A program made the position numbers and the translations under genes. The notes beneath the pieces are model-generated. The model did no database searches. It was not told the origin of the DNA and saw only the letters and a program-made list of their open reading frames with translations. Shown one piece after another: positions 4,502 to 33,158 of a stretch of DNA of 33,158 nucleotides; position 1 is the first letter of the stretch; every line of letters starts with the position of its first letter. This stretch comes from Paludibacteraceae bacterium (GTDB taxonomy: Bacteria; Bacteroidota; Bacteroidia; Bacteroidales; Paludibacteraceae), in contig JAFWXW010000034.1 of assembly GCA_017517845.1 (NCBI GenBank), positions 1-33,158 on the forward strand, read 5' to 3'.

Positions 4502-4646
4502 TTCTAACTCCTAATTGCCTAACGGCGATTTTATTCCCTACGGTCATCAACACGTGCTCTCGTTCGGGATAATAAATAAATTTATTCTCCTCTCACTTAC
4601 TCGCAAAATTCCTAATTCCTAACTCCTAATTCCTAATTCCTAATTA
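4502..4646. repeat. Heptamer-flanked intergenic repeat element, copy A
   Basis: The left flank (4502-4522) has about three AACTCCT/AATTGCC-type units. The right flank (4607-4646) has five and a half units of AATTCCT/AACTCCT. The core (about 4523-4606) shares GGTCATCAACACGT, CTCTCACTT and other blocks with copy B (10866-10955). It holds a perfect hairpin AATAAAT-AA-ATTTATT at 4571-4586. The element fills most of the gap between the murB stop and the start of the starch-binding protein gene. I found no convincing TAnnTTTG promoter in this gap. Confidence 0.8.
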
Positions 4647-6956: not shown

Positions 6957-7004
6957 AGTTAGGGGTTAGTTAGTTAGGAGTTAGAAGTTAGGAGTTAGGA
7001 ATTA
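6957..7004. repeat. Heptamer array in the leader of the deacetylase-like gene
   Basis: About six units of AGTTAGG/AGTTAGA/AATTAGG type with some irregular spacing. On the coding (minus) strand the unit reads CCTAACT. The array starts almost at the ATG (6954) and ends about 40 bp downstream of the promoter box at 7043-7050. Confidence 0.8.
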
Positions 7005-10813: not shown

Positions 10814-11018
10814 ATTGTTTATTGTTTATTGTTTTTTTAGTATATATAATTCCTAACTCCTAACTAACGTTGATTCTTGGCTGCGTTATTCCCTGACGGT
10901 CATCAACACGTCGGCATAGTTCAAACAAGTTTGACTCTGCTCTCACTTGCACAAGAATTCCTAACTCCTAACTCCTAACTCCTAACTCCTAACTGTCAAC
11001 TGTCAACTGTCAACTCCT
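10814..11018. repeat. Heptamer-flanked intergenic repeat element, copy B, with CAATAAA array
   Basis: From left to right: three units of ATTGTTT (10814-10834; CAATAAA on the coding strand); AATTCCT/AACTCCT units (10848-10868); a core of about 90 bp (10866-10955) with GGCTGCGTT, GGTCATCAACACGT and CTCTGCTCTCACTTGCACAA; then nine heptamers (10956-11018): AATTCCT, four AACTCCT, three AACTGTC, one AACTCCT. The core holds the hairpin TCAAAC-AA-GTTTGA (10921-10934). Together with the promoter box and tRNA promoter this explains the 355-bp stretch between the TPR gene and tRNA-Cys; I see no coding sequence in it. Confidence 0.85.
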
Positions 11019-12589: not shown

Positions 12590-12669
12590 ATAATTTATTG
12601 TTTATTGATTATTGTATATTGTTTATTAGTATATATAACTCCTAACTCCTCACTCCCAACTCCTAACTC
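12590..12669. repeat. Leader repeats: ATTGTTT-type units plus heptamer array
   Basis: Next to the EEP gene start lie degenerate TTTATTG-type units (about 12596-12628), then TAGTATATATAA, then AACTCCT, AACTCCT, CACTCCC, AACTCCT (12637-12664). The order is the same as at 10814-10868. The stop codon of the ABC-F gene (12663-12665) lies in the last heptamer. Confidence 0.75.
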
Positions 12670-14478: not shown

Positions 14479-16506
14479 ATGACAAAACTTATAAAATATT
14501 TTATTCCCTTTGTTTTTTGCCTATTTGCAATGCCAAACTTATTGGCAGACAAAGGGTTTTGGCACCCTGCATTTCTTCCAGATTCCATTGTTGAATACAT
14601 AGAAGAAGAAGGCGACATCACACTAGAAAATATTTACAATGCAGACTCCTTAAACAGTTTAAATAATTATGTGGTATATCTTAACAACGGATATACTGCT
14701 AGTTTAATTTCTAAATCTGGTCTTCTTTTATGCCCATACGACGCCATCAAACCATATATAAACAGTGTAGATTCACTAAAAAATGGTTTCTTAGCAGAAG
14801 AAATTTATTATGAAAAACCTATCTACAATCTTTCTGCTTTTTTTGACAACAAGCCAGACAGCGTTAGATTTGATGATATTCGTTTGGTATATGCTCCAAG
14901 TTTGTCATTGGCTGAGCCTAATATCAAAAATCAATATTCCAAAGACAAATACAATGCCAACTTTGTTCTGCTAAGAATATATGCAGACCGCGACAATAAG
15001 CACTCAAACTATAACAACATAAACCAACCATACGTTACAGATAGTTGTTTGACTATCGCTCGCCACTATCCCAACGAAGACGATTTTGTTTTCTACATGG
15101 GTTACCCAAATATAAGTGAAAGAAATCTTTCTTCTATAAATATTTATGAGAGAATCCAATTGGAAGATAGTGCAAAACTTATTGGTTATCAATTCCTTAC
15201 AGACTCTGCCATTTGTTTTTCTCACAAAGAGATAGCAGAAATCAAAAACAAAAAAGAAACTCTTATATACCCTACTCTTGTCAAAGAAAAACAGGAAAAA
15301 GAAAATGAGTTTAGAGTTTGGGCTGCCAATCACGAGATATTTGAATCTGCTTTGAGATATGCCAATAATGTTACGTTTATGAGAAAATATCTAGCAGAAA
15401 GAAGAAAATCTGGATTTTTGTACAATCTCAGCCAAACAATATTTGACAAATCTGTTATTCTTTCTATGGGAGAAATTCTTGTCACCATGACAGAAGAGAA
15501 TAAAATGACAATGTATGCAGAACTAGCCAAACTTTATGAAATTTATAATCCAGAAAGAGAAAAACTAGTTCTTAAACAAATGCTAGAGTTTTACAAAACA
15601 CATTGCGATAGCATATTTTTACCAAATGTTTATTCAGAAATTGACTTAAAATACAAAGGTAATATAGATAAATATCTAGACAAATTGTTTAAAAAGTCAT
15701 TTGTGACTAATGAAAAACGCTTTAACAAATATCTAGACAATCCCAAAGAAGAGGTATTTAACCAAGATATGATGATTGTTTTGTCTAAGGATATATTAAA
15801 ACATAAAACATTGGTTTATAACTACTTCCATAGTTTTGACGAAGACATGGAGAAGGCTTATAAGCTATATACCGAGGGTTGTTTAATACTAAATTCAGAT
15901 TTTTATCATGCTCCAGATGCCGATTATTCACTCCGAATGGGATATGGAACAGTTAGCTCACACAGAAATAATCCTTCATTTACAGTATCTGCTATTTCAT
16001 ATTTAGGTGATATAAATGTAGTTTCTATTCTAGAAGGAGAAGCATTAGACTCATTAACCTATAGCCAACTAACTGATGCAGACAGCATTAGGACTAGTTT
16101 CCTTACCACCTGTGATGCCCCACTATTTAGAATGGGAGAACCTGTATTTAATCTAAAAGGTGAAATCATAGGTATGCTAACATCTGGAAATGAAGAAGCA
16201 GAATTAAATAATTATATGTATCATGAAAGTTTCCGCACTATAGCCACAGACATCAATTATTTAATGTATTTGTTGGACAATGCAGAAGCAGACAATATAT
16301 TAAATGAAATAATCCTAGGAGAAGAAGAAAAGATCATTGATATAGAATACTTTACACCAGTAGATTCACTATTAATCCCAAATGATTCATTAATGATTCT
16401 TAATGATTCGCTTTTGATGCTAAATGATTCACTAAGAGCGTTGAACGATTCGCTGATGATTAATGCAGATTCGGTTGCGATAGATAGTTTACAAGTTAGG
16501 AGTTAG
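14479..16506 (+). CDS. Exported S46-peptidase-like protein lacking catalytic residues
   Basis: The 675-residue protein has a signal peptide (to about residue 23, before DKGFW) and resembles S46 dipeptidyl-peptidases (DPP7/DPP11) in length and landmarks: DKGFWHPAFLP at the start, NNGYTASLISKSGLLL (about 69-84), NANFVLLRIYAD (159-170), GEPVFNLKGEIIGM (553-566) and FRTIATDINYLMYLLD near the end. At each expected catalytic position the residue differs: the NHH segment reads PYD (86-88), the Asp of TGDF reads Asn161, and the Ser of GNSGSP reads Glu554. Residues 629-671 are heptapeptide repeats of DSLxxLN. I chose ATG 14479; an upstream TTG (14458) lies in the promoter box. The stop lies in a heptamer array that also precedes pdxB. 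Function unknown; activity as a peptidase is unlikely. Confidence 0.75.
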   Translation: MTKLIKYFIPFVFCLFAMPNLLADKGFWHPAFLPDSIVEYIEEEGDITLENIYNADSLNSLNNYVVYLNNGYTASLISKSGLLLCPYDAIKPYINSVDSLKNGFLAEEIYYEKPIYNLSAFFDNKPDSVRFDDIRLVYAPSLSLAEPNIKNQYSKDKYNANFVLLRIYADRDNKHSNYNNINQPYVTDSCLTIARHYPNEDDFVFYMGYPNISERNLSSINIYERIQLEDSAKLIGYQFLTDSAICFSHKEIAEIKNKKETLIYPTLVKEKQEKENEFRVWAANHEIFESALRYANNVTFMRKYLAERRKSGFLYNLSQTIFDKSVILSMGEILVTMTEENKMTMYAELAKLYEIYNPEREKLVLKQMLEFYKTHCDSIFLPNVYSEIDLKYKGNIDKYLDKLFKKSFVTNEKRFNKYLDNPKEEVFNQDMMIVLSKDILKHKTLVYNYFHSFDEDMEKAYKLYTEGCLILNSDFYHAPDADYSLRMGYGTVSSHRNNPSFTVSAISYLGDINVVSILEGEALDSLTYSQLTDADSIRTSFLTTCDAPLFRMGEPVFNLKGEIIGMLTSGNEEAELNNYMYHESFRTIATDINYLMYLLDNAEADNILNEIILGEEEKIIDIEYFTPVDSLLIPNDSLMILNDSLLMLNDSLRALNDSLMINADSVAIDSLQVRS

Positions 16507-16532
16507 GAGTTAGGAGTTAGGAGTTAGGAGTT
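16494..16532. repeat. Perfect heptamer array between the S46-like gene and pdxB
   Basis: Five perfect copies of AGTTAGG plus AGTT, directly followed by the pdxB start ATG. It encodes the last residues and stop of the upstream gene (16504-16506) and offers several GGAG sequences; the one at 16520-16523 is 9 nt before the pdxB start. Confidence 0.93.
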
Positions 16533-17477
16533 ATGAAGATTGTTGCGGATTCATATATACCTTTTTTAAAAGGACTATTAGACGATGTAGCCCATGTAGA
16601 ATATTTACCACCTTCTGAAATCACTGCAGAGGCGGTAAAAGACGCTGATGCAATGATTATAAGAACTCGCACCAAGTGTAATGCAGCTTTGTTGTCTGAG
16701 AGTAAGGTGAAATTTATTGCAACAGCAACCATTGGTTACGACCATATAGACACTGCCTATTGTGCAGAAAAAGGAATTTCATGGACCAACTGCCCTGGGT
16801 GCAATGCAGATAGTGTTAATAACTATATTTATGCAGCCCTTACCACTGTTTTTGAAGAAAATTTAAAGGACAAAACCATTGGTATAATAGGTGTAGGAAA
16901 CGTAGGTAGTCGTGTAGCAAGCATGGCAGAGAAAATGGGAATGAAGGTTTTATTAAACGACCCTCCCCGTGCCGAGAAAGAAGGTCCAGAAATGTTTGTT
17001 TCACTGCGTGAAATTCAGGAAAAAGCAGCTATTATTACCATTCACACACCGTTAAATAAAGAAACTTTTCATCTAGTGAATGATGCATTTTTAGATGCTT
17101 GCAAAAATACACCCCTCATTATCAATGCAGCACGAGGCGAAGTTTGTGACACTTTAAGTTTGCTCAATTACAAAGGTGAAATTATTCTAGACTGTTGGGA
17201 AAATGAACCTAATATAAATCTAGATTTACTCAGAAAGGTTATCATAGGCACTCCACACATTGCAGGTTATTCAGTAGATGGCAAAGCCAATGGAACTCGC
17301 ATGGCAGTGGAAGCAGTTTGCAAGTTTTTTGGCATCGAAAAGACCATTCACATAGAAGTTCCAGGAGAAAAAGGAATACCTTATTATATAAAGGGTGAGA
17401 GTGTTGCTCTAAAAGCACACCCTGAACTTTTTGAAAGTTTTAGGAATAATTATCCAATCCGCAGGGATAATATATAA
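16533..17477 (+). CDS. pdxB: 4-phosphoerythronate dehydrogenase
   Basis: PdxB oxidises 4-phosphoerythronate in the DXP-dependent route to pyridoxal phosphate (vitamin B6). The 314-residue protein shows the D-2-hydroxyacid dehydrogenase layout: IIRTRTKCN and ATIGYDHIDT in the catalytic domain, the nucleotide-binding GIIGVGNVGSRVA (about 112-124), INAARGEVCD with the catalytic Arg, DCWENEP with the Glu, and TPHIAGYSVDGKANGT with the His. The last motif is diagnostic of PdxB. It is shorter than E. coli PdxB (378 residues) because the C-terminal dimerisation domain is reduced, though the end FRNNYPIRRDN is kept. The start codon directly follows a heptamer array whose GGAG copies are the only ribosome-binding-like sequences. 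Confidence 0.93.
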   Translation: MKIVADSYIPFLKGLLDDVAHVEYLPPSEITAEAVKDADAMIIRTRTKCNAALLSESKVKFIATATIGYDHIDTAYCAEKGISWTNCPGCNADSVNNYIYAALTTVFEENLKDKTIGIIGVGNVGSRVASMAEKMGMKVLLNDPPRAEKEGPEMFVSLREIQEKAAIITIHTPLNKETFHLVNDAFLDACKNTPLIINAARGEVCDTLSLLNYKGEIILDCWENEPNINLDLLRKVIIGTPHIAGYSVDGKANGTRMAVEAVCKFFGIEKTIHIEVPGEKGIPYYIKGESVALKAHPELFESFRNNYPIRRDNI

Positions 17478-17597
17478 TTCCTAATTGCCTAACTGCGATT
17501 GTTGGCTGCGTTCGGCATAGTTCAAGTAAACTTGACTCTGCTCTCACTTGCACAACAATTCCTAATTATTCACTAACGTTCATCAATACGTTCTAAT
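17474..17597. repeat. Heptamer-flanked intergenic repeat element, copy C
   Basis: The left flank is AATTCCT-AATTGCC-TAACT (17478-17495). The core shares GCGATT, TTGGCTGCGTT, CGGCATAG and ACTCTGCTCTCACTTGCACAA with copy B. The right flank is AATTCCTAATTATT (about 17558-17571). The hairpin is TCAAGT-AA-ACTTGA (17522-17535). A segment like GTTCATCAATACGTT, in the core of A and B, here lies after the right flank. It fills the gap between pdxB and truA. Confidence 0.82.
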
Positions 17598-19481: not shown

Positions 19482-22190
19482 ATGAAAAAGATTACTTTAT
19501 TATTAGGAGCATTCCTAATGTCTTGTGCATCTCTGCTAGCACAAGCTCCTTCAAATGCTCCAGACGTAATGCTACAAGGTTTCTATTGGGACTCATTCGC
19601 GAATGGGAGCTATGGGAATACCACTTGGGCTACACTACAATCACAAGTAGAAGAACTCTCAGAATCTTTCGACCTAGTATGGCTTCCACCATCAGGGAAA
19701 GCTAGCAGCAAACCTAGTACAGGCTACGACCCTAAAAAATGGAGCGACCAAAATAGTTCATGGGGTACTGTAACCGAGTTAAAAGCACTGATTGCAGCAT
19801 TCAAAGCAAATGGTACTCGTTGCGTTGCAGACATAGTTATTAACCACCGTAATGGAAATTACCATTGGGGCGACTTTGAGAATGAAACTTTTGGTTCTCA
19901 AACATACACACTATATCCTAGCGGACAATTTATATGCAGCGACGACGAAGTAAGAAATCAACCTGATGAAGTTGTTCCAACTGGAGCTAAGGATGCTGGT
20001 TATGAAACGGTATGCGATGCTTCTGGAGGTTATTGTGCTTCACGTGACCTAGACCATAGCAATGCTTACCTACAAAAAACCATAAAAGCCTACTTATGTT
20101 GGCTTAAAGATGAAATAGGTTATGACGGTTGGCGTTATGACCTTGTAAAAGGTTATTTAGGCAAATACACTGCTATGTATAATGATGCAGCTAATGCCTA
20201 TATGTCTGTAGGCGAATACTGGGATTACAACTATGGAGGAGTTGAATATTGGATTAAAGAGACCAACTATAAATCAATGGCATTCGACTTCCCTATGAAA
20301 TACTCAGCATTGAATGATGCTCTTTCTAAAGGGAATTACCAAGGCATGGCTAGCAGTACTTACAACGTTCCACAAGGCCTATGCGGTGCAGACAACATGA
20401 AACGTTACTCTGTAACATTTGTTGACAACCACGATACATTCCGTGACCACAACAAATACAATGGACCAAGTTGGGAACAAGCTAATGCATACATTCTTTC
20501 TGCTCCTGGTATTCCTTGCGTATTCTGGCCTCACTGGGTAAGTTGCAAAAAGGATATCAAAGCTATGATTAAAGCACGTAAAGCTGTAGGTGAACACAGC
20601 CAATCTAAATGTACTACAGAAGGTACTTGCGGAAGCTACTACAAATGTACAACTACTGGTACTAAAGGTACTCTTATCTGCTTTATCGGTGGTGGTTGGC
20701 AAGAACCTGCAGGTTACACCAAAGCATGTAGCGGTAATGGTTGGGCATATTACACAAGTACTGGTGTTACTATAGACCCAACTCCAACACCTGATCCAAC
20801 TCCTACTCCAACACCAGACCCAACACCTGGAACTACAGGATATAGTCTTTTAGTTAATGGAACAGATCTATACAATATGACAGACGAAGGTGCATGGGAT
20901 ATGGACCAATCATACAACCAATTCTCACTTACAGGTGTATCTTTAAAATCTGGTGATACATTTGTATTCTACAACAACTCAAACGGAGAAACTTGGGGTA
21001 GTGTAACTGTAGACCCTGCAAGTGTTGCAGGAATCAGTGGTACTGGTACAAACTTCAGTGTTAGTGCAGATGGATGTTACTCTGTATACTTAAAACTAAA
21101 ATACCAAGCTGATAATGTTTACTTTGGTACAGGTTCAGATTGCGGTAGCGTAACTCCTACTCCAACACCAACTCCAGATCCAGACCCAACTCCTACACCT
21201 GATCCAACTCCTACTCCAGACCCAACACCTGGAGGTACAGGTTATAGCATATTAGTTAATGGAACAGATCTATACAATATGACAGACGAAGGTGCATGGG
21301 ACATGGATCAAACATACAACCAATTCTCACTTACAGGTGTAGCTTTAAAATCTGGTGATACATTTGTATTCTACAACAACTCAAACGGAGAAACTTGGGG
21401 AAGTGTAACAGTAGACCCTGCAAGTATTACTGACATCACAGGTTCTGGCACAGACTTCAGTGTTAGTTCAGATGGATGTTATTCTGTATACCTAAAACTA
21501 AAATACCAAGCTGATAATGTTTACTTTGGTACAGGTTCAGATTGCGGTAGCGTAACTCCTACTCCAATACCAACTCCAGATCCAACACCAGATCCAACAC
21601 CTGGTCTTTCAACAGACTACTACCTAATTGGTTACATCAATGGTGCTGATTATGCAAGTGGAGAAACTGATTGGAATATTACTGGCGACTATAAATTTGT
21701 TAATGGAAAAGTAACAGTAGAATTTACAGAAGAATCATACGTTTATGTAAAAACTGGTGACCTAAGCGGTTGGTTTATGGCAAAAGAATATGTATTACCT
21801 AACGAATCGGGAGCATCTGGCGTACTTTACAATACAGCAAACGAAACAACAGCCATGGAAAAAGTTGGTGTACCAGCTGGCACTGTAACATTTACCCTAG
21901 TAGAAAATGCTAACGGTTCATTAACATTGTCATACACAACAGGTGCTTCTGCAATCATCGAAGCTGAAGCAGTTAATATGACAATCTACCCTAACCCAAC
22001 AAGTGATTTCATCACAATCAGCTGCGACGAAGCTATTGAAGAAGTAGTTATCAACGCAATCAACGGTAGCGAAGTTATCAGAACAAACTCTAACCAAGTT
22101 GACCTATCTGCTCTAACTCCTTCAATGTACTTCGTAAACGTAATGTTACAAAACGGCGACGTTGTAAGAAGCAAAGTTATTCGTAAATAA
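19482..22190 (+). CDS. Secreted GH13 alpha-amylase with repeated modules and T9SS sorting domain
   Basis: The 902-residue protein hydrolyses alpha-1,4-glucan links in starch outside the cell. After a signal peptide (to about residue 21) comes the GH13 domain (about 26-430) with all four motifs: DIVINHR, GWRYDLVKG with nucleophile Asp220, VGEYWD with acid/base Glu245, and FVDNHD with Asp318. A Pro-Thr-Asp linker leads to two nearly identical modules (about 453-560 and 587-694, starting GYSLLVNGTDLYNMTDEG or GYSILVNG), each followed by another DPTPTP linker. A third beta-rich module (about 710-825) follows. Residues about 831-902 (MTIYPNPTSDFITI to YFVNVMLQNGDVVRSKVIRK) form a type A T9SS sorting domain, so it is exported through the type IX system. 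The C-terminal modules may bind starch, but I do not recognise their family. Confidence 0.93.
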   Translation: MKKITLLLGAFLMSCASLLAQAPSNAPDVMLQGFYWDSFANGSYGNTTWATLQSQVEELSESFDLVWLPPSGKASSKPSTGYDPKKWSDQNSSWGTVTELKALIAAFKANGTRCVADIVINHRNGNYHWGDFENETFGSQTYTLYPSGQFICSDDEVRNQPDEVVPTGAKDAGYETVCDASGGYCASRDLDHSNAYLQKTIKAYLCWLKDEIGYDGWRYDLVKGYLGKYTAMYNDAANAYMSVGEYWDYNYGGVEYWIKETNYKSMAFDFPMKYSALNDALSKGNYQGMASSTYNVPQGLCGADNMKRYSVTFVDNHDTFRDHNKYNGPSWEQANAYILSAPGIPCVFWPHWVSCKKDIKAMIKARKAVGEHSQSKCTTEGTCGSYYKCTTTGTKGTLICFIGGGWQEPAGYTKACSGNGWAYYTSTGVTIDPTPTPDPTPTPTPDPTPGTTGYSLLVNGTDLYNMTDEGAWDMDQSYNQFSLTGVSLKSGDTFVFYNNSNGETWGSVTVDPASVAGISGTGTNFSVSADGCYSVYLKLKYQADNVYFGTGSDCGSVTPTPTPTPDPDPTPTPDPTPTPDPTPGGTGYSILVNGTDLYNMTDEGAWDMDQTYNQFSLTGVALKSGDTFVFYNNSNGETWGSVTVDPASITDITGSGTDFSVSSDGCYSVYLKLKYQADNVYFGTGSDCGSVTPTPIPTPDPTPDPTPGLSTDYYLIGYINGADYASGETDWNITGDYKFVNGKVTVEFTEESYVYVKTGDLSGWFMAKEYVLPNESGASGVLYNTANETTAMEKVGVPAGTVTFTLVENANGSLTLSYTTGASAIIEAEAVNMTIYPNPTSDFITISCDEAIEEVVINAINGSEVIRTNSNQVDLSALTPSMYFVNVMLQNGDVVRSKVIRK
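20838..21562 (+). repeat. Direct repeat of an amylase accessory module
   Basis: Copy 1 (20838-21160) and copy 2 (21240-21562) are offset by 402 bp and nearly identical at the DNA level, with long exact blocks such as AATGGAACAGATCTATACAA. The linkers between and after them are short DPTPTP-type repeats. Confidence 0.92.
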
Positions 22191-27740: not shown

Positions 27741-27826
27741 AATTAGGAAGGAGGAATTCGAAGAATCGCCGTAGGCAATGAGGAATTAAAAAATAACTCC
27801 TAACTCCTAACCCCTAACTCCTAACT
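27741..27826. repeat. Repeat element D: inverted partial copy plus heptamer array
   Basis: The left part (27741-27787) reads AATTAGGAAGG, then AATCGCCGTAGGCAAT and GAGGAATT, which is the reverse complement (one base shorter) of the ATTGCCTAACGGCGATT edge of copy A. The right part (27795-27826) is a plus-oriented array AACTCCT, AACTCCT, AACCCCT, AACTCCT, AACTTTT. The whole lies between the promoter box at 27723 and the rhomboid start. Confidence 0.75.
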
Positions 27827-33060: not shown

Positions 33061-33093
33061 CAAAGATAGTGCGAGCCGAGAGAAATACCAAAT
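33061..33093 (-). promoter_or_regulatory. recR-purE promoter
   Basis: On the minus strand TTTG (33090-33093), a 21-bp spacer and TATCTTTG (33061-33068) fit the Bacteroidota pattern. The -33 region overlaps an imperfect inverted repeat with core GAAATAC/GTATTTC. The remaining bases to the window end hold no gene I can see. Confidence 0.7.
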
Positions 33094-33158
33094 TTATTTG
33101 AGTATTTCCGAGGCGATGCCTTCTGTTCTTTCTAATTATATAGTATATATATTGTATA

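Follow-up and report, generated by a model that had tools for sequence, protein, structure and literature searches.

A dispersed repeat of about 66 bp in Bacteroidales with a covarying single-strand fold, very probably a mobile element

Palindromic repeats such as the Rickettsia palindromic elements (RPEs) are able to sit in frame inside genes, and in integron attC sites a single strand folds, with structure kept more than sequence. REPs and BIMEs are short hairpin repeats that occur in many copies, as dimers and in clusters, according to one account (PMC3733652), which defines CGTC REPs by a CGTC tag, a stem of 8 to 9 bp, a loop of 4 to 5 bases, and a CCA tail and presents RAYT as the dedicated mover proposed for REPs. 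Non-autonomous repeats are likewise described from Bacteroidales, as the BrickBuilt MITEs of Porphyromonas gingivalis (PMC5771137), and a paper on the TAACTGA heptamer (PMC4679880) concerns heptamer arrays.

The element described here shares with REPs and BIMEs its hairpins, its many copies, and its dimers and clusters but differs from them in its greater length, its bipartite fold, its conserved asymmetric internal loops, and a basal stem that varies freely but stays paired. The CGTC tag is absent, the fold comprises 23 pairs with internal loops, and no GTAG-type unpaired tetranucleotide was found at the foot of the element in 101 named copies. Unlike a MITE, the element has no fixed terminal inverted repeat, its terminal stem varying by copy, and no parent transposon was found; the element was compared with BrickBuilt by description. 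Also compared by description, it resembles RPEs in that two copies are in frame and differs from them in occurring in other bacteria and in being mostly intergenic. One of these two copies is read through within a ZIP transporter gene (locus L082, 1501-1565) and the other within a frame without a Pfam hit that we take to be RHS-like (locus L085, 1501-1573). The likeness to integron attC sites lies in the single folding strand and the precedence of structure over sequence. With Rfam structured RNAs the element shares a covariation-supported fold without matching any model: there was no match in the window at gathering score and none in 7 loci at an E value of ≤1 apart from tRNA-related hits. 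The open literature searched held no description matching this family, nor one of heptamer or hairpin repeats of Bacteroidales like it. The preliminary description of this DNA had named no family, which still holds for Rfam and that literature; as far as these show, the element is a new family, close in kind to REPs.

The window, i.e., the whole stretch of DNA that was analysed, consists of 33,158 nucleotides of a Paludibacteraceae genome (G000; 1.68 Mb, 38 contigs, 81% complete). Three of its intergenic gaps had been said to carry related cores with a hairpin centred on AA, and direct reading of the window located the hairpins as described, all on the minus strand: AATAAAT/ATTTATT at 4571-4586, TCAAAC/GTTTGA at 10921-10934 (CTTG loop on the minus strand), and TCAAGT/ACTTGA at 17522-17535 (TTTA loop on the minus strand). 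The cores are indeed related, since CTCTCACTT is common to the 4.5-, 10.9-, and 17.5-kb copies and GGCTGCGTT and CGGCATAG are common to the latter two, and heptamer arrays adjoin element copies as reported. GGTCATCAACACGT is likewise common to the 4.5- and 10.9-kb copies, but it belongs to a second small repeat sitting within them rather than to the element. The small hairpin covaries, as had been claimed, but the folded unit is not limited to it: an outer stem and a middle helix covary as well, which gives a unit of about 66 bases.

In the clean class-I copy, this unit spans 17497-17561 (minus strand; covariance model R2, 17496-17561, 89.9 bits), and the gap that contains it is bordered by truA and a 2-hydroxyacid dehydrogenase (pdxB-like) gene, as named by Pfam; the copy is antisense to the two. 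The class-I copy at 10872-10960 (minus strand; R2, 10894-10960, 51.4 bits) lies upstream of a TPR-protein gene, in sense orientation to it, and is interrupted at 10888-10911 (ends ambiguous by one T) by the small second repeat ATTCCCTGACGGTCATCAACACGT; by comparison, its uninterrupted counterpart in the same genome (G000:C4:957-1062) reads GGCTGCGTTCGGCATAG. An insert of the same kind, ATTCCCTACGGTCATCAACACGT, placed at 4533-4555 by comparison with an uninterrupted copy, interrupts the copy at 4527-4611 (minus strand; covariance model R1, 4554-4610, 44 bits; R2, 4562-4598, 31.5 bits). This copy represents a second subtype, class II, with a different basal loop, and lies in sense orientation to both its neighbors, murB on one side and a gene carrying chitobiase-C-terminal/Fn3-associated domains on the other; an uninterrupted class-II copy at locus L019 reads GATTTTGCTCTCG. 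A fourth copy, missed in the preliminary description, was matched by R1 at 33061-33128 (R2, 37.5 bits), just upstream of recR and divergent from it. The folding strand is the minus strand for the 4.5-, 10.9-, and 17.5-kb copies and the plus strand for the fourth.

Heptamer arrays accompany the 10.9-kb copy (TCCTAAC and AACTGTC, 10959-11015) and the 4.5-kb copy (AATTCCT, 4607-4645). Further intergenic arrays of TCCTAAC and its kin occur in the window at 6957-7004, 12636-12669, 16494-16533, and 27794-27826, and around truA, congeners carry arrays of other 7- to 8-base units. The second small repeat, which is ATTC(A/C)CTNACG(G/T)TCATCAA(C/T)ACGT-like, is found within two element copies and free-standing at 17568-17591, near the third. 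Tandem repetition on another scale is seen at 20774-21603, where two 402-bp tandem copies with 91% matches lie inside an amylase-like gene (19482-22190, named by reading).

On the folding strand, the element begins with the basal stem P1, 6 to 7 bp of variable sequence (AATTNNN/NNNAAT and others), followed by one G opposite GCC, by P2 (TGC/GCA), and by an AA bulge. A middle helix of two variable pairs then leads to GA opposite GA, and beyond this come a G-C pair, an A bulge, and GCAGA/TATGC; the tip is a variable apical stem with a four-base loop, the first base of which pairs with the last. Within the 105 copies of alignment A2 (see below), this loop is CTTG in 50, TTTA in 18, and CTCG in 15. 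With alignment A4 (see below), the apical closing pair was counted as C-G or T-A in 135 of 141 cases. The second subtype (GCGATTAAGCGAGAGC...GCCGAGCGTGAGC), which includes the 4.5-kb copy, has the same centre and tip and another basal loop. In G000, P1 is often followed by a small hairpin that is exchangeable, and side hairpins with GAA, GTA, or GGA loops were noticed by eye. Among copies with identical 50-base cores, the P1 triplets differ by several matched changes (e.g., CTT/AAG and GAT/ATC); P1 stems with a single mismatch or wobble also occur. Folding z scores of the clean copy were -3.5 (minus strand) and -2.9 (plus strand) as RNA and -2.9 (minus strand) and -1.9 (plus strand) as DNA, values that do not decisively favor either strand, and the fourth copy scored -4.4 as RNA. 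The interrupted window copies folded no better than shuffles (RNA z scores of -0.7 for the 10.9-kb copy and 0.2 for the 4.5-kb copy), as is expected if the insert broke the fold.

Pairing was kept across copies through changes in both arms. RNAalifold recovered 11 inner pairs, 6 of them with double changes, from 22 of 24 collected copies (alignment A1; one identical copy and one without the outer stem were dropped). In A2, which holds 105 class-I copies out of 158 references (53 were dropped by hand as class-II copies, copies with an extra middle-helix base, or near-duplicates) and whose named copies were fetched by a pattern that fixes several paired columns, 95.0% of the cells at 23 pairs are paired, whereas shuffles reach 79.2% and slid controls no more than 45.3%. 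Double-change cells numbered 435, compared with 43 to 94 in slid controls, and double changes were present at 19 of the 23 pairs. Alignment A4 contains 150 copies (143 distinct) found by the model without a pattern, with 1 of 151 matches left unaligned; it is fitted to the model structure and so leans towards it. Here, 93.3% of the cells are paired, all 23 pairs are doubly changed, and the covariation score is 0.596, against 0.025 to 0.087 for slid controls. For class-II copies, its P2 is a poor fit (75% paired). The preliminary description had held that the structure and not the sequence is kept and had proposed collecting copies from this and related genomes for a covariance model. With those copies collected and the model built, covariation at all 23 pairs of A4, and double-change counts in A2 and a score in A4 far above those of slid controls, strongly support that view. 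We consider it probable that the element is selected for its single-strand fold.

An A.C mismatch on one strand is a G.T wobble on the other, so a bias between the two tells which strand pairs. On the minus strand, the off-Watson-Crick cells of A4 include 135 G.T and 36 A.C, a count that supersedes an earlier one of 85 and 23, in which many of the copies were pattern-fetched. The wobbles thus point to a fold of one strand only, the window's minus strand. This bias lies mainly in P2 and the middle helix, the two pairs of the latter having 39 G.T versus 2 A.C; it is weaker in P1 (30 versus 8), slight in the apical stem (5 versus 2), and reversed at one badly aligned pair (columns 38-85, 65% paired), with 3 G.T and 16 A.C. 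G.T wobbles are rare in the fast-changing arms (apical stem, 1.0%; P1, 2.4%), which is what recopying one arm from the other would give.

The element is abundant in its host genome and patchily distributed beyond it. Searching G000 by blastn with positions 10840-10980 gave 77 matches, 39 covering the hairpin and many others being heptamer arrays, and the core model R1 gave 78 matches at an E value of ≤1, 77 of them at ≤2.4e-5; similarity among the copies is far beyond chance. Fourteen of 16 genomes of the genus carry 2 to at least 86 copies each, the high counts being lower bounds, and the other two carry none. When 17 candidates per genome were scored, matches were obtained in at least 70 of 295 sampled Bacteroidales genomes, the window's genome included, and in 3 of 295 others from the phylum, with one match each and one of these three still belonging to Bacteroidales. 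A pattern scan of named genomes returned at least 116 stretches, and among 80 titles listed, 78 were Bacteroidales and 2 were "uncultured bacterium." The cultured strain Xylanibacter rarus 109 accounts for at least three of the pattern matches, on two contigs. Named carriers among the matches listed include Prevotella, Segatella, Xylanibacter, Hoylesella, Leyella, Duncaniella, Muribaculaceae, Paludibacteraceae, and others; a match at locus L216 was judged a G+C-rich chance match and left out. Phages and plasmids held almost no copies (one record each at an E value of ≤1e-3 with the consensus query), and viral contigs gave 5 pattern stretches on 4 contigs; carriage by phages or plasmids was rejected. 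Tandem head-to-tail copies of the element were observed at loci L141, L157, L169, L212, L305, and L307.

Comparisons within the genus indicate gain or loss of whole units. Congener G009 has a copy with heptamers in the pdxB-truA gap where congener G005 reads straight through, with truA 97.3% identical between the two, and at a second G009 site (L347:7612-7715), a 104-bp stretch with a copy stands against 16 bp in G005, next to a left flank that is 99% identical over 589 bp. These two genomes are mosaic relatives, in which pdxB is 75.5% identical and L347 segments are 77 to 99% identical. The window and G007 both have a copy in the pdxB-truA gap, in opposite orientations, the window's copy being antisense and that of G007 sense, and no copy was found in the murB flanks, as fetched, of 15 other congeners. 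No target-site duplication of ≥3 bp was evident by eye at the G005/G009 sites, which lie in repeats, nor were excisions, circles, or target duplications observed anywhere. The filled and empty sites lie in short tandem arrays, and loss by recombination could mimic insertion; because the flanking arrays can recombine, gains and losses at a single site are indistinguishable.

Nesting and borders delimit the unit. At three places in G000, a class-II copy together with its side hairpin is nested inside class-I copies. G009 holds a triple nest (L347, 18366-18770), from the outside inward a class-II element, a CGGTCACTGAGC hairpin repeat in the apical loop, and a class-I element; the innermost class-I copy is bounded by its own P1. 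Across 101 named copies, none of the 14 positions before P1 carries more than 0.19 bit of information apart from the last, which has 0.48 bit (G or C), and outside P1 on the 3' side the information is at most 0.36 bit, with a weak A-rich bias. Conservation ends at P1, and so do the copies. The preliminary description had offered a structured RNA or a small mobile repeat. Its second half is supported by copy numbers of 0 to 86 across 16 congeners, presence or absence between near-identical flanks, and nesting, and we regard it as very probable that the element is a mobile dispersed repeat. Movement appears to be recent, in a genus that mostly lacks the usual enzymes.

The first half, a structured RNA, fares less well. 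Such an RNA might act in transcripts as a 3'UTR or intercistronic element stabilizing or processing mRNA, or might constitute a small-RNA family, and the single-strand fold with G.U wobbles, together with a GA/GA internal loop and a CTTG apical loop that are RNA-like by loop name, would suit it. So would gene context in the window's genome: among 72 copies (75 R2 matches minus one place seen twice and the two weakest), the copy is sense to the gene before it for 48 of 63, with a median distance of 29 bases to the stop of that gene, and where both neighbors were scored, +/+ arrangements number 36, -/- 7, convergent 10, and divergent 5. This bias is, however, absent in named genomes (19 +/+ and 18 -/-) and absent or weak in G009 (9 +/+ and 6 -/- among 24 copies); gene calls in these context counts, as in the border and orientation-pairing counts, are mechanical long reading frames. 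In A2, moreover, the 28 antisense copies are paired as well as the 39 sense copies (97.1% and 95.8%, respectively; P = 0.30), which is the main reason why we do not file the element as a functional mRNA element. The range of 0 to 86 copies within one genus, the copies inside reading frames (7 of the 72), and the lack of an Rfam match also speak against a structured RNA, and we consider this explanation rather unlikely. As to replication, the copies show no leading- or lagging-strand bias (41 of 81 named loci); a positive skew in G000 (43 of 65) was set aside as confounded by the gene-orientation bias there. Reverse transcription and insertion of a folded transcript, in the manner of a bacterial SINE, would explain the strand-specific fold, insertion in either orientation, and the many copies. 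Reverse transcriptase (PF00078) was nevertheless found in only 5 of 16 congeners and is absent from 9 of the 14 carriers, including G000 (78 copies) and G009 (85 copies), in assemblies 78 to 100% complete, so that single absences are weak. Reverse transcriptase may have been active in carriers in the past; even so, we judge an RNA-mediated element improbable.

Enzymes of the other usual kinds do not track the copies either. Movement of a REP or BIME by RAYT, an IS200-like Y1 transposase, would fit small intergenic hairpins in high copy number, and a copy of the element lies about 0.7 kb from the single Y1 gene of G000. Yet Y1 (PF01797) was detected in 2 of 16 congeners versus the element in 14 of 16, the element's foot is without GTAG or CGTC, and the sole Y1 gene checked is flanked by a repeat of another kind, GTAG-footed and in inverted copies; we therefore reject a Y1/RAYT mover, and the REP/RAYT reading, which we hold to be highly improbable, is close to refuted. 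That Y1 gene stands alone at 1417-1851 of locus L031 (G000:C4:8386-11724), between repeats at 727-742 and 1990-2005 (GTAGGCAGGTGT...), and the unit appears to be REPtron-like and distinct from the element. Y2 transposase (PF04986) occurs in one congener, G011, which has 2 copies, and neither it nor reverse transcriptase tracks the copies; G009, with 85 copies in an assembly 86% complete, shows no Y1, Y2, or reverse transcriptase. A last alternative dispenses with a selected fold altogether: in a DNA palindrome, template switching during replication would recopy one arm from the other and so make paired changes. The matched P1 triplets between identical 50-base cores and the scarcity of G.T intermediates, both in P1 and in the apical stem, are what it predicts, and RNA genes are reported to show mutation patterns that fit template switching, among them multibase compensatory changes (PMC8794818). 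However, the asymmetric internal loops are conserved rather than erased, and the middle-helix wobbles are biased to one strand, which makes an unselected palindrome very unlikely. Template switching may still be the way in which the arms change, even under a selected fold.

Our favored explanation, to which we incline without great confidence, is that the copies are a non-autonomous mobile repeat of about 66 bp that relies for its spread on the folded shape of one strand. An enzyme acting in trans would recognize the conserved centre and cut or copy at the foot of P1. Matched changes in P1 and the apical arms would arise as one arm is recopied from the other by template switching at the hairpin, and selection for mobility would keep the foldable copies. 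We lean slightly towards DNA rather than RNA as the folded strand, given the orientation indifference in named genomes, the absence of reverse transcriptase from 9 of 14 carriers, the few arm wobbles, and the DNA-type loops. GNA loops form stable DNA mini-hairpins, which the GAA, GTA, and GGA side hairpins of the element resemble; the tetraloop CTTG is known from RNA as well. One paper describes TTTA as a type II loop of DNA with first and fourth residues pairing (PMC5661647). On the RNA side stand the wobbles in the centre, the GA/GA loop, the CTTG tetraloop, and the sense bias in the window's genome. More tentatively, the element could belong to a new, Bacteroidales-wide, recently active class of mobile repeats that move as a folded single strand, with internal loops recognized by a factor other than Y1, Y2, or reverse transcriptase and a basal stem remade pairwise at or after each move.

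Overall, the element is an abundant repeat family in gut bacteria, among them Prevotella and its relatives, Muribaculaceae, and Paludibacteraceae. Small hairpin repeats shape bacterial genomes, and this one has a richer fold and a clear strand specificity. Because some related genomes have a copy at a site where others have none, its mover can be searched for directly, and the copies amount to a large natural data set on the joint change of both arms of a stem.
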